DNA of 64,000 bases, taken from Candidatus Saccharimonadota bacterium (GTDB lineage: Bacteria > Patescibacteriota > Saccharimonadia > Saccharimonadales > Saccharimonadaceae). Each line of letters begins with the position of its first letter. Within the stretch, counting starts at the first letter, position 1. The notes under the pieces are model-generated. The model ran no database searches. It was not told the DNA's origin and was given only the letters and a program-made list of their open reading frames with translations. The stretch lies in contig JAFWMY010000011.1 in the NCBI GenBank assembly GCA_017545485.1, positions 62,001 to 126,000 on the forward strand, in the 5' to 3' direction. Below are positions 10,979-38,269 of this stretch, in pieces. A program made the position numbers and the translations under genes.

Positions 10979-10990
10979 TTTGTTAATGAA

Positions 10991-11022
10991 AATAGGCATC
11001 TGGACAAAGATGCCTATTTTTT
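10991..11022 (+). terminator. Terminator after fusA
   Basis: A 10-bp AATAGGCATC/GATGCCTATT stem is followed by six T. Confidence 0.9.
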
Positions 11023-11032
11023 GTTATTACTA

Positions 11033-11061
11033 TTGACATAAATGCATATCCGTGATATAAT
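11033..11061 (+). promoter_or_regulatory. Consensus promoter TTGACA-N17-TATAAT with TGn extension
   Basis: TTGACA (11033-11038), a 17-base spacer ending TGa, and TATAAT (11056-11061). It drives the large RNA beginning near 11068. Confidence 0.88.
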
Positions 11062-11067
11062 AAAAGC

Positions 11068-11571
11068 AGTGTGGGCATCATTGGACTTTAACAGTGGTGT
11101 TGGGAAAAGATAAATGTTTGCATGCTGGTTCGGACCATCTGGACGGACTGAGCCATTTTATCCTGTCTTTCATTCGCCTAATGAAAGAACTACCATCGGC
11201 TAAAATGTTTTAATACAATTCTCTTATACGGGGGAGATGAAGGCAATTGTATTAAGGGCTTATGTTCTCTCAGGCTTTGCCTGTACTGCTAGTTGGCGTA
11301 AATAACGAACCTCTGTTTGAGGGCTAAATCCTCCCGAAGTGTTATTTATTAAAACTAGTCGTAATAGATGAGAATTGGCCAGCCCGTAAACTCATCTTTA
11401 GAGGTTCTTTATCTGTTATACAGATAAGAGAATGTAGCTGTTATTGCTATTTTCTGCTTAGCGCTTGTGACGCAGGTGGAGATGTAGCATAAAAGCTATA
11501 AACATAGTAGTTGAGTTTTCAACTACAACCACACTCCTTTCTCAAGGCCGCTTTAATTAGCGGCCTTTTTT
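11068..11571 (+). ncRNA. Large structured non-coding RNA, about 500 nt, family not recognised
   Basis: This spans a consensus promoter to an intrinsic terminator with no open frame of note. It contains many self-complementary arms: CTTTCATT/AATGAAAG (about 11169-11189), ATACAATT/AATTGTAT (about 11213-11251), a nested CTAGTT..AAATAAC with GTTATTT..AACTAG (about 11290-11360), GATGAG/CTCATC (about 11367-11396), TTATCTG/CAGATAA (about 11409-11427) and GTAGTTG/CAACTAC (about 11507-11526). The long-range and nested pairing suggests a compact fold, not a simple leader. It lacks the tmRNA T-arm and 3' CCA, the RNase P GAGGAAAGTCC core and the SRP GGAA/AGCA core. The downstream gene is convergent, so it is not a leader. 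Confidence 0.75.
11544..11571 (+). terminator. Terminator of the large RNA, embedded in the adhesin 3' end
   Basis: An AAGGCCGC/GCGGCCTT stem (11544-11551 with 11560-11567) is followed by T's to 11571. The stop codon of the convergent adhesin gene lies in its loop. Confidence 0.88.
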
Positions 11572-14205
11572 AAAGATTGATTGACGAGAAGTTGCTCTGC
11601 GAATGAAATAACCTCCGAGACATATCACGACGACGGATACGACAAATATTGGAGCACCAGTAGAAGTGCTAGACTGGTTTTCGCTAGATTTAGTAATAAA
11701 ACCGGTGTCTGGAGCTGGAGTAGATACTTCTACGGATTCATCTTCGTTATTTAAATCTTCGTGGCTGACAATCAGCTCATCATCACGATATAGACTTTCA
11801 AATATTACAAATTTGGCTCCTTGAAGGTTAGTGGTATTTAACGGATAAAACATGTCAATTTCACCACAGGCTTCTTCTGGGGTAAAGGTGACCTCTTGTT
11901 CAACTGTCTCGTCATTTATAATCAGTTTCTCGCCAGTCTCTCTGTTCATTAGGATACCTTTTATAGTATACTCGGCGCCTGGCTTTAAGCAATATTTCAC
12001 AATATCTCTAATTATTACGTCTTGGTCATGGGGAAGAATTTTATCGTTGGTGTCTTTATTGGTTGCATAGGTATGAAGCTCAACTAATTCAACGGTTTGA
12101 GCAACATCATCTATATCTTCGTGGGAGGTGATTAATTCATCTTTATAGTAAAGCGTCTCGTAAACAACCAGTTCTGCGCCGCCCAAATTGGTGCTGTCAA
12201 AAGAGAAGAACATTTCTGTTTCGCCGCATTCTTCATCTGGCTTAATAGTGATAGAACTTTCAACGGGCTGACCATTATTTAGGAATTTTTCACCTGTATT
12301 TTTGTCCATTAACACGCCTTTAATTGTAAATTCTGTGCCGGCTTTTACACAGTAGGAAATCGTATCTTTGATTGTAGCTTCGCCGCCAACCTCTATAAAT
12401 TTATCGCCATCTTTAGCGTCAGTAGCTTCGGTTTCTAGAGTAAACTTGGTACAAGTATTGTTCCAATCACCGAGATCAATGACTTCATTATGCTCGTTAA
12501 TCTCAATGGTGATTTTTTGGTCTTTGATGCCTGTACAGAAAATGTTTGAACTACATCTTAACTCTTGGATAACGTATTTGCCATAGGGAAGAGCACCGAG
12601 CTCGTCTTTAACGGGGAGAGGATTGCCGTCGTGGTCATAACCAAACCAAGTACCAAAGCCTGAGAAGTAAAATGGTTCTGGCTCGTCGTAGAGTGGGTCG
12701 TATCCGTTTGTATTGAAAGAGTGTAAAGCAAAGCTAGAAGATGTATCTACAACGCCGTTTTGATCGCTAACGACTATATGGGTTTCGCCCATTTGATTGT
12801 TTTCATCTATGGCGGAAATACTAAAGAGAACATCGTGCATCGGTTTATCGTTAACTTCGTCCATTTTAATGAATTTCACATCTCCACGGATAACCTGGTT
12901 TTTAATAGTGGTTTCTGCATCATTAGAAGAACTACTGGCTGGAATGCTAATAGTTATTGGAGTGTCATTAAGGACGTACCCTCTGCCAGTTGCGGTCTCT
13001 TTAACAATATATGAGCCATATGGAAGCTTTTCAAACGTTACACTACAGCTACCACTTGTAAGTGTTTTAGTATCAATTACGGCGTTCTTAGCGTGACTTG
13101 CGCCATTATAATAAACTGGATTAGTAGAGTTGTTGATTAATTGGAAAGATGTGCCGTCAAAGGACAAGTCGCCAACCGTAGTGCAAGAATTAGTCTCGGC
13201 ATCGGCTTTATGAACGGTAATATTGCCAGAGACGACATTATCGTAAAAATACAGGTTAATTGTACTGTTACTTCCGTTTAGAGTTCCATTTTGCTCACTA
13301 GCAGTTAATTCGTAGCTAGCATTCGTTGCGGTTTCTACTACTCTGTATTTTACATTGTTTGCCAGGAGGTTTGAAAAGGTTATATTGCCACTAGCGTTGG
13401 TGGTACCTGTGGCGACTAAATCGCCATTGTTATATAATCTATCAGCTTTAGGGTTATAAATCTTAGCGCCCGAGTTATTATATACTTTAAATTCTATACC
13501 AGATAATGAAGCATTGCCCTGAGGGCTACAAGTATTAGTGATTTTGTCGCATTTTTGGACATTAATAGTGCCATATTGATAAGAGTTTTCAATCCAGACA
13601 ATGTCCTGAACAGCGCCACCGCCTAAAGTGCGATATAAAGTAAAGTTCTTAGCAATCGCCCAAACTGGGGCATCATTATTGATATACCCTTGCAAAATAC
13701 CGATCATTCTATTGATGTAATCCACATTAGTTGGGGAGACACCGGTATAGTCACCAGCATAAATTGCCCCCATAATGGCATGTGCCCAGGCATATTCTTC
13801 TTCTGCGGTTGCACCCCAATAATCAAACATCTCTCTCTCGGCGGCCCTAGTGTACGAATTATCGTAAGTAGTGATATAAATCATAAGCTTTAATTGTTTA
13901 TATCTATTCTCATCACTATTAACTAAATCTGCTGTATACTGACCGCTAGGAGTACCGAGCGATGGCTGGGCGCAAAATGCATCATAGTCAGTGCCACCGG
14001 ATGAAATATAAAAATGATTTGTCATCCAACCATCATAGCTTATTGGAGCACCTGGAGTAACATAAACTGTACCGCCATCTGCGGTGGCGTTAACATCGGT
14101 ATTGATATTTTTAAGAGCCAAAAAACCCCCGATAGCCAATAGTATCACAGTAAAGACTAACGAAAAGGCTTTAATAGCATATTTCTTGCGGGGTAAATTA
14201 AACAT
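11557..14205 (-). CDS. Giant surface adhesin: thioester-type head, CnaB/SpaA-like and VaFE repeats, sorting signal
   Basis: An 882-residue exported protein with a signal anchor at about 10-31. The head (45-205) looks like a thioester domain: Cys78 in YDAFCAQP and Gln200 in AVQDIVW are the candidate cross-linking pair. Three CnaB/SpaA-like beta domains follow (about 211-315, 330-435, 440-615), each starting with NVQKCD- or VHKAD-like strands and closing with a YxVxE strand. Two tandem VaFE-type domains (about 620-745 and 746-830) end in LVVYETLY and FVIFESLY. The C-terminus has PAPDTG (830-835), a Ser/Thr linker, a membrane helix (about 852-868) and a basic tail. This architecture mediates host attachment in Gram-positive pili and adhesins. 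The sortase at 40.1 kb is a plausible anchor enzyme. Confidence 0.85.
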   Translation of the reverse strand: MFNLPRKKYAIKAFSLVFTVILLAIGGFLALKNINTDVNATADGGTVYVTPGAPISYDGWMTNHFYISSGGTDYDAFCAQPSLGTPSGQYTADLVNSDENRYKQLKLMIYITTYDNSYTRAAEREMFDYWGATAEEEYAWAHAIMGAIYAGDYTGVSPTNVDYINRMIGILQGYINNDAPVWAIAKNFTLYRTLGGGAVQDIVWIENSYQYGTINVQKCDKITNTCSPQGNASLSGIEFKVYNNSGAKIYNPKADRLYNNGDLVATGTTNASGNITFSNLLANNVKYRVVETATNASYELTASEQNGTLNGSNSTINLYFYDNVVSGNITVHKADAETNSCTTVGDLSFDGTSFQLINNSTNPVYYNGASHAKNAVIDTKTLTSGSCSVTFEKLPYGSYIVKETATGRGYVLNDTPITISIPASSSSNDAETTIKNQVIRGDVKFIKMDEVNDKPMHDVLFSISAIDENNQMGETHIVVSDQNGVVDTSSSFALHSFNTNGYDPLYDEPEPFYFSGFGTWFGYDHDGNPLPVKDELGALPYGKYVIQELRCSSNIFCTGIKDQKITIEINEHNEVIDLGDWNNTCTKFTLETEATDAKDGDKFIEVGGEATIKDTISYCVKAGTEFTIKGVLMDKNTGEKFLNNGQPVESSITIKPDEECGETEMFFSFDSTNLGGAELVVYETLYYKDELITSHEDIDDVAQTVELVELHTYATNKDTNDKILPHDQDVIIRDIVKYCLKPGAEYTIKGILMNRETGEKLIINDETVEQEVTFTPEEACGEIDMFYPLNTTNLQGAKFVIFESLYRDDELIVSHEDLNNEDESVEVSTPAPDTGFITKSSENQSSTSTGAPIFVVSVVVICLGGYFIRRATSRQSIFKKGR

Positions 14206-37198: not shown

Positions 37199-37215
37199 CA
37201 TAACATTATCAATTA

Positions 37216-37305
37216 ATATCAAGAAGGGGCGAGGGAACGGCCCGGTGACCCCCTGCCAACCTAGTGAAAGCCAAGGTGGTAATTCCGACCAGAAAGGAAA
37301 GATAT
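37216..37305 (+). promoter_or_regulatory. SAM-I/SAM-IV-like riboswitch in the metK leader
   Basis: The core GAGGGAACGGCCCGGTGA (37231-37248), GCCAACC (37255-37261) and AAGGTGGTAATTCC (37273-37286) matches the SAM-I family core (GAGGGA-GGCCC-AUGA, GCAACC, AGGUGC-AAUUCC). Arms P2 (GGC/GCC) and P3 (CC/GG) are visible. Only about 15 nt follow AATTCC, so the usual P4 arm is missing or tiny. The outer helix can form between ATATC (37216-37220) and GATAT (37301-37305). That helix includes the AUG and lies next to GGAAA, so SAM binding should hide the start codon. Translational repression of SAM synthase is the natural reading. Confidence 0.85.
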
Positions 37306-38269
37306 GTTCTATAGAACGGCGGAGAGCGTCTCTCCAAAACACCCAGACAAATTGTGCGACCAAATTTCAGATGCGATTTTGGATGCATATTTAAAAGAAG
37401 ACCCGGATGCCCGTGTGGCTGCAGAGACATGCGGTGGGCATGGCGTTGTGTTTGTAACTGGTGAAATTACTTCTAAAGCCGGTGAGATAGATATTCCAGC
37501 AATCGTGCACCGTATCGCGGGCGACGATATGGAAGTGCATACTAAAATTGTGAAACAGTCTCCAGAAATTGCAGCCGGAGTTGACACCGGTGGTGCAGGA
37601 GACCAGGGAATTATGATTGGTTATGCCTGTGATGAAACACCAGGAATGCTACCTAGAGAAGTAGTTTTGTCACGACGACTCAACCAATTTATTTATAATA
37701 AACACCCATATGATGGCAAAACTCAAGTAACAATTGCGCCGGATGGCACAATTGATTCGGTCGTAGCTAGTTTTCAAAATGTTCCAAAAGATGAACTGGA
37801 AAAGTTGGTGCGCGAGTTTATCTCCACCGAGAAATTAAATGGCAAATTAGAGTTACATATTAACCCGGCCGGTGATTGGAACCAAGGCGGATTTGAAGCA
37901 GATACTGGGCTCACTGGACGTAAATTAATTGTTGACAACTATGGCCCAAGCGTGGCAATTGGTGGTGGCTGCTATTCCGGCAAAGACCCGTCTAAGGTGG
38001 ACCGTTCCGCAGCATATATGGCTCGCCGTATTGCAGTAGATTATTTGCGCGAACGAAAAGCACATGAAGTTTTGGTGCGCCTTGCTTATGCGATTGGTTA
38101 TGCAGAACCTTTGGAAAAAACCGTAATTATTGATGGTGCCGTAGAGGAAATAAAAGGCTACGATTTGACGCCTAATGGTATTATTAAATATTTAGACTTA
38201 AAGCGCCCAATTTACGAAAAAACCGCAATGTGGGGGCACTACGGCCATGAATTCCCGTGGGATAAATAG
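37304..38269 (+). CDS. metK: S-adenosylmethionine synthase, compact form
   Basis: Makes SAM from methionine and ATP. Key motifs are present: ESVSPKHPDKLCDQISD with the catalytic His, KQSPEIAAGVDTGGAGDQGIMIGYA, DGKTQVTI, GLTGRKLIVDNYG and GGGCYSGKDPSKVDRSAAYMAR. The protein has 321 residues against about 380-400 in most bacteria. The loss is spread over the central loops and the C-terminal strand/helix region, while the ending (RPIYEKTAMWGHYGHE) is conserved. It is controlled by the riboswitch whose closing helix contains its AUG. Confidence 0.95.
   Translation: MFYRTAESVSPKHPDKLCDQISDAILDAYLKEDPDARVAAETCGGHGVVFVTGEITSKAGEIDIPAIVHRIAGDDMEVHTKIVKQSPEIAAGVDTGGAGDQGIMIGYACDETPGMLPREVVLSRRLNQFIYNKHPYDGKTQVTIAPDGTIDSVVASFQNVPKDELEKLVREFISTEKLNGKLELHINPAGDWNQGGFEADTGLTGRKLIVDNYGPSVAIGGGCYSGKDPSKVDRSAAYMARRIAVDYLRERKAHEVLVRLAYAIGYAEPLEKTVIIDGAVEEIKGYDLTPNGIIKYLDLKRPIYEKTAMWGHYGHEFPWDK

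Follow-up and report, generated by a model that had tools for sequence, protein, structure and literature searches.

The window analysed here, a stretch of DNA of 64,000 nucleotides from a gut Saccharibacterium, carries between two translation genes a stand-alone gene for a folded RNA (11033-11571, + strand; Table 1). Upstream lies fusA, which has its own terminator, and downstream lies the convergent gene of an adhesin, a variable surface protein with TED (thioester), SpaA and TQ (T-Q ester) domains. Relatives of this adhesin occupy the fusA-tuf interval in many species of the genus.

The preliminary description of the locus had claimed a stand-alone RNA with a perfect promoter, a terminator and no open frames, and each of these points was recovered: the promoter, TTGACA-N17-TGaTATAAT with an extended TG, matches the consensus at 12 of 12 positions; a terminator hairpin is present, albeit absent from the output of a simple pattern scan; and the longest sense frame inside the RNA is 39 aa, with none conserved. 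The next gene is convergent as described, but one correction is needed: the adhesin gene stops within the terminator hairpin, giving the two genes a 3′ overlap of ~15 nt, all of it terminator. Because the RNA gene has its own promoter and terminator, with the fusA terminator upstream and a convergent gene downstream, we infer on these sequence grounds that it forms a separate, strongly promoted transcription unit with a body of ~470-500 nt. A boxA-like candidate, CUUUAACA, lies at about 11086-11093.

The minimum free energy (MFE) of 11033-11571 (+) is -174 kcal/mol, compared with -134.5 ± 6.5 kcal/mol for dinucleotide-shuffled sequences (z -6.1; 0 of 100 shuffles as good), in agreement with its earlier portrayal as highly structured. 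The minus strand is also structured (z -5.2); despite this, we take the plus strand as sense, since the promoter, the closing stem P1 and the terminator all point that way.

An nhmmer search of ~190 fetched loci with the window RNA (hereafter W) gave a single match, S (E 0.0047), which lies directly downstream of fusA, near position 189,030, in JAFWHO010000004.1 (L067, G164:C3) from a sheep-ileum Saccharibacterium. S shares with W the promoter spacing, the 5′ start AGTGTGGGCATC, and the 3′ CCACACT, has a terminator too, and is ~310 nt long compared with ~480 nt for W. The genome of S contains two further copies: T, located by searching for the promoter plus the 5′ motif (the reversed-pattern control returned none), and U, found by reading the surroundings of T and situated in tandem just upstream of it. 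From their sequences, T and U are probable tandem paralogues. The family is known from four members in two genomes, which range from about 265 to 560 nt.

All four members have the promoter, the closing stem P1, the inner long-range helix P3 and the terminator, and W, S and T probably have P4 and P5 in common. U has P1, P3 and the ends in common with the others, while its interior (the P4/P5 core) is not alignable. The common plan consists of the promoter, P1, P2, a variable region that is long in W and T and short in S, P3, and then P8, P1 and the terminator; P3 encloses P4 with its apical hairpin, P5, P6 and one more arm.

Table 1 Features of the RNA gene in the window and of its immediate surroundings (W, window copy; S, T and U, relatives).
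Feature	Position	Strand	Remarks
Terminator of fusA	10988-11021		Upstream of the RNA gene
Sigma-70-type promoter	11033-11061	+	Spacing same in S, T and U
Promoter, TTGACA	11033-11038	+	Followed by 17-nt spacer
Promoter, TATAAT	11056-11061	+	
P1, 5′ strand AGUGUGG	11068-11074	+	About the expected transcription start; partner 11529-11535
P2 hairpin GCAUCAUUG / CAGUGGUGU	11075-11100	+	Directly 3′ of P1; S and T also have a hairpin there
Variable region	11105-11254	+	Several more arms (e.g. 11167-11187); ~160 nt longer than that of S
P3, 5′ strand UUAUGUU	11260-11266	+	Long-range helix with 11486-11492; in all four members
P3a hairpin CAGG-CUUUG-CCUG	11271-11283	+	Similar hairpin in T; absent from S
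P4 arm UACuGCUAGUU / AACUAGUcGUA	11284-11363	+	Apical hairpin 11319-11333; compensatory changes among W, S and T
P5 hairpin AGAUGAG / CUCAUCU	11366-11397	+	Both sides changed in 6 of 7 pairs
P5 loop GCCAGCCC	11378-11385	+	Identical between W and S
P6 hairpin	11405-11432	+	Preceded by AGAGGUUCUU (in T, AGAGGUCCUU)
P3, 3′ strand AGCAUAA	11486-11492	+	Partner of 11260-11266
P8 hairpin	11507-11526	+	Just 5′ of the P1 3′ strand; hairpin or arm there in S, T and U
P1, 3′ strand CCACACU	11529-11535	+	Partner of 11068-11074
Terminator hairpin AAGGCCGC-TTTAATTA-GCGGCCTT	11544-11571	+	Short T tail; convergent adhesin gene ends within the hairpin
Adhesin gene	11557-14205	-	882 aa

The kinship of these sequences was assessed with covariance models and with tests that are independent of any alignment. 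A model built from W alone (R3) placed S as the top match in the whole of its 0.83-Mb genome, at 25.8 bits (E 0.0022), ahead of a next match at 18.5 bits. The same model placed T at the top of its own 20-kb stretch in an unfiltered search, with the match at the coordinates proposed beforehand and a weak score (11.5 bits, E 0.13; next match 10.3 bits), and did not list T in a genome-wide filtered search of the S/T/U genome. A model of W and S (R1) ranked T third in T's locus, and plain sequence comparison detected neither T nor U. Independently of alignment, all four members display a match of at least 7 nt between their first 14 and last 30 nt, corresponding to P1, which shuffled sequences give at a rate of ~1% per sequence; the P3 match is less striking, with a chance of 0.1-0.4 per sequence. 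The unconstrained MFE folds of T and U, also alignment-independent, contain P1 and P3, and that of T contains P4 and P5 as well. P3 is absent from the MFE fold of W itself, where imposing it with the other helices costs 11.7 kcal/mol relative to the best fold.

Covariation among homologues had been put forward in the preliminary description as a check, and compensatory changes are seen in W, S, T and U. In T and U a G-C pair of P1 has become U-A, and in T an A-U pair of P3 has become G-C; over the four sequences these two helices have double changes in 3 of 13 pairs and are 100% paired, which are modest numbers. An alignment of W, S and T over P4, its hairpin and P5 has 12 of 22 pairs changed on both sides, an upper estimate given that N served as filler in this manually fitted alignment and its scores lean towards structure. 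Here 94% of cells are paired, 0 of 500 shuffles were as good and slid structures fail. In a fusA/tuf tree the carriers of W and S group as sisters (support 85/98). Judged by these sequence comparisons, the four members very probably represent a new family of large structured noncoding RNA (ncRNA) genes.

A cmscan search of W against all 4,227 families of Rfam 15 up to E 10 returned terminator look-alikes alone: the weak entries at 11485-11580 are generic terminator hairpins belonging to other families. The earlier statement that the family is unknown therefore holds, with no credible Rfam match, as does the statement that the RNA is neither tmRNA nor RNase P RNA. Both of these resemble W as stand-alone structured RNAs with a terminal stem that closes the molecule, but both have genes of their own elsewhere in the genome, on contig C14 (class A RNase P RNA, 223 bits). 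W has no model match to either, nor the tRNA-like domain or tag frame of a tmRNA, and ARAGORN found in the window two tRNAs alone, far from W, and no tmRNA.

Several large bacterial RNAs invite comparison. ROOL is non-essential and its abundance can equal that of 16S rRNA (PMC12286853, PMC5643018). GOLLD is a large, ornate RNA with one variable and one conserved part; ROOL and GOLLD form RNA-only multimers of unknown function, and OLE, a large structured bacterial RNA, is a dimer in its solved structure (PMC12286853). The 520-nt lncRNA of Lactobacillus salivarius is extremely abundant, can exceed 16S rRNA and is missing from some strains (PMC5643018). Like ROOL (RF03087) and this lncRNA, the window RNA is stand-alone, ~500 nt, ornate, accessory and without a known protein partner, but it has no match to the ROOL model and its arms and motifs are different. 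It is large and ornate with variable and conserved parts, as is GOLLD, whereas many GOLLD RNAs exceed 800 nt and W has no Rfam match, phage context or tRNA context; OLE is similar in being a large structured bacterial RNA, again with no Rfam match for W. The ROOL model gave no match up to E 10 in the genome of the window or in the sister genome, a weak result because the control genomes gave none either. A prophage or phage context, often with tRNA islands nearby, would be expected of ROOL or GOLLD. No such context was observed here: the neighbours are fusA, the adhesin gene and tuf, and viral contigs and phages returned no match. A literature search turned up no work on structured ncRNAs in Saccharibacteria.

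The distribution of the family appears narrow. Plain DNA similarity searches of 100 relatives and then of 174 genus genomes returned promoter and terminator matches alone. Model R1 detected no member beyond the known ones in the 174 genus genomes, many of them >95% complete, with the caveat that divergence could hide some. No further member was found with relaxed promoter patterns in the genus genomes or with model R2 among 394 sampled genomes of the family; such genome searches begin with a coarse first look, and very diverged copies may escape. A search of 2.9 million viral contigs yielded no match. Candidates discarded on inspection were matches in phage and plasmid collections (chance), an IMG/VR match (L311; coding), R1 matches in G204, G008, G146, G006, G158 and G180 (in or beside coding sequence) and ~40 other matches to the promoter and 5′ pattern (ordinary gene promoters, other leaders or short RNAs). 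The examined structured intergenic regions of the window's own genome contained no paralogue; they comprise clusters of tRNAs, one long hairpin and a contig that carries tRNA-Leu.

Comparison of syntenic fusA-downstream regions, also proposed in the preliminary description, had a mixed outcome: such a region holds S, whereas those of G048 and G039, where the convergent adhesin is present too, contain no homologous RNA. The fusA-tuf interval spans 150-7,690 bp over 34 measured loci and differs in gene content by species. As its length varies and its cargo differs between species, we regard the interval as an accessory-gene site. The RNA is likely accessory rather than core. Because the carriers of W and S are sisters, the simplest history suggested by the sequences would be a single insertion downstream of fusA in the common ancestor, followed by fast divergence. 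S has no adhesin beside it but a gene whose 155-172-aa product belongs to no Pfam family, T and U adjoin unrelated genes, and the three loci (W, S and T/U) share no partner gene.

We considered several alternative explanations. The RNA could be a regulator that acts in trans or in cis through short stretches of base pairing, for instance with the mRNA of the convergent adhesin, whose gene, encoding a variable surface protein, ends inside the RNA's terminator hairpin. We find this unlikely: S has no adjoining adhesin, T and U lie by unrelated genes, the overlap consists of terminator throughout, and the size and elaborate fold go beyond the needs of a pairing sRNA. It is also improbable that the RNA belongs to a mobile or defence module, as a component of the guide, retron or antitoxin type. 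The patchy distribution and the variable-cargo site would suit such a module, as would the tandem arrangement of T with U and the presence of another tandem ncRNA array between fusA and tuf in the sister genome, but it is opposed by the absence of a shared partner gene and of matches in viral contigs, phages or plasmids, and the orthologous position of W and S in sister carriers fits vertical descent.

A similarly improbable account is that W is a very diverged ROOL, GOLLD, OLE, RNase P RNA or tmRNA missed by present models. It matches ROOL and GOLLD in size class and style, being stand-alone, ornate and accessory (PMC12286853), and the L. salivarius RNA illustrates how abundant an RNA of this kind can be (PMC5643018); the Rfam search, the separate RNase P RNA and tmRNA genes and, weakly, the ROOL model speak against it. 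The proposal of the preliminary description, a core or host-interaction RNA of Saccharibacteria, draws on the strong promoter and the small genome. It is now very unlikely, the core role having found no support: no further member was detected in the 174 genus genomes or the sampled family genomes, within the stated limits of divergence, and the cargo of the site varies by species. The findings speak neither for nor against a host-interaction role. Least credible is the view that this is structured intergenic DNA with no functional RNA product. The case for a transcript is built from sequence, which leaves some room for this explanation, but a diverged orthologue jointly retains the promoter, the closing stem and the terminator, along with compensatory changes.

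We favour an accessory structural RNA of a new family that would be strongly transcribed from its near-consensus promoter and would act in trans via its three-dimensional fold, as a scaffold or a self-assembling particle resembling ROOL and GOLLD, rather than as a guide, antisense regulator or core ribozyme. For this statement as a whole we put the chances at about even. Action via the fold is suggested because pairing is kept while sequence and length drift, and an accessory RNA acting in this manner fits the kept pairing, the near-ideal promoter, the lack of a common partner gene and the patchy presence. The scaffold or self-assembly step, which is argued by analogy, is tentative, and it is rather doubtful that this is a fast-evolving large-RNA family of a few Saccharibacteria forming an RNA-only particle or scaffold. 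The best reading of the resemblance is that the RNA is similar in style to ROOL and GOLLD, yet a member of neither. If the favoured explanation is true, ornate RNA nanostructures would occur outside phages, in an ultra-small epibiont. Few large structured bacterial RNAs of unknown function have been described, and this family is not in Rfam 15; two sister lineages with one site and one plan but very different sequence and length would make the purpose of the fold tractable to test. The fusA-tuf interval of the genus would hold RNA genes besides surface-protein genes.

Other elements were observed in these and further genomes of the genus. The fusA-tuf interval of JAFWHO010000004.1 contains four tandem noncoding units of ~230-290 nt each (L067 8200-9290), every one with its own TTGACA-TATAAT-type promoter, a long diverged closing stem, a conserved hairpin motif, GAACATTANNGGG, and a terminator similar among the units. 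These units have no Rfam match and were found nowhere else among the fetched loci; the array is a second, separate ncRNA family. A conserved post-promoter leader, AGTCTGGG...CCATTAACAACCGAATCATCTCAGGTTTCAA, precedes ~210-aa frames at L312, L313, L317, L319, L323, L324, L330 and L338. At L315, L321, L322, L325, L327, L329, L332 and L336, a short conserved element, either a hairpin RNA or a leader (RRGGGCGACC...GGCCAAGCCCYY), lies directly 3′ of the promoter and is followed by T-rich sequence. Many extended -10 promoters of the genus (e.g. L191, L206, L212, L216 and L223) precede a similar initial transcribed sequence, A-N-TG-N-GGG, a promoter pattern with 43 matches and none in the reversed control. 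An AT-rich 12.5-kb contig bears a long near-perfect inverted repeat (L234 2036-2103, G000:C9); contigs C9 and C11 are both 12,565 bp, perhaps representing a plasmid-like or duplicated contig. The window itself also encodes a SAM riboswitch (RF00162, 60 bits) at 37213-37308 (+).
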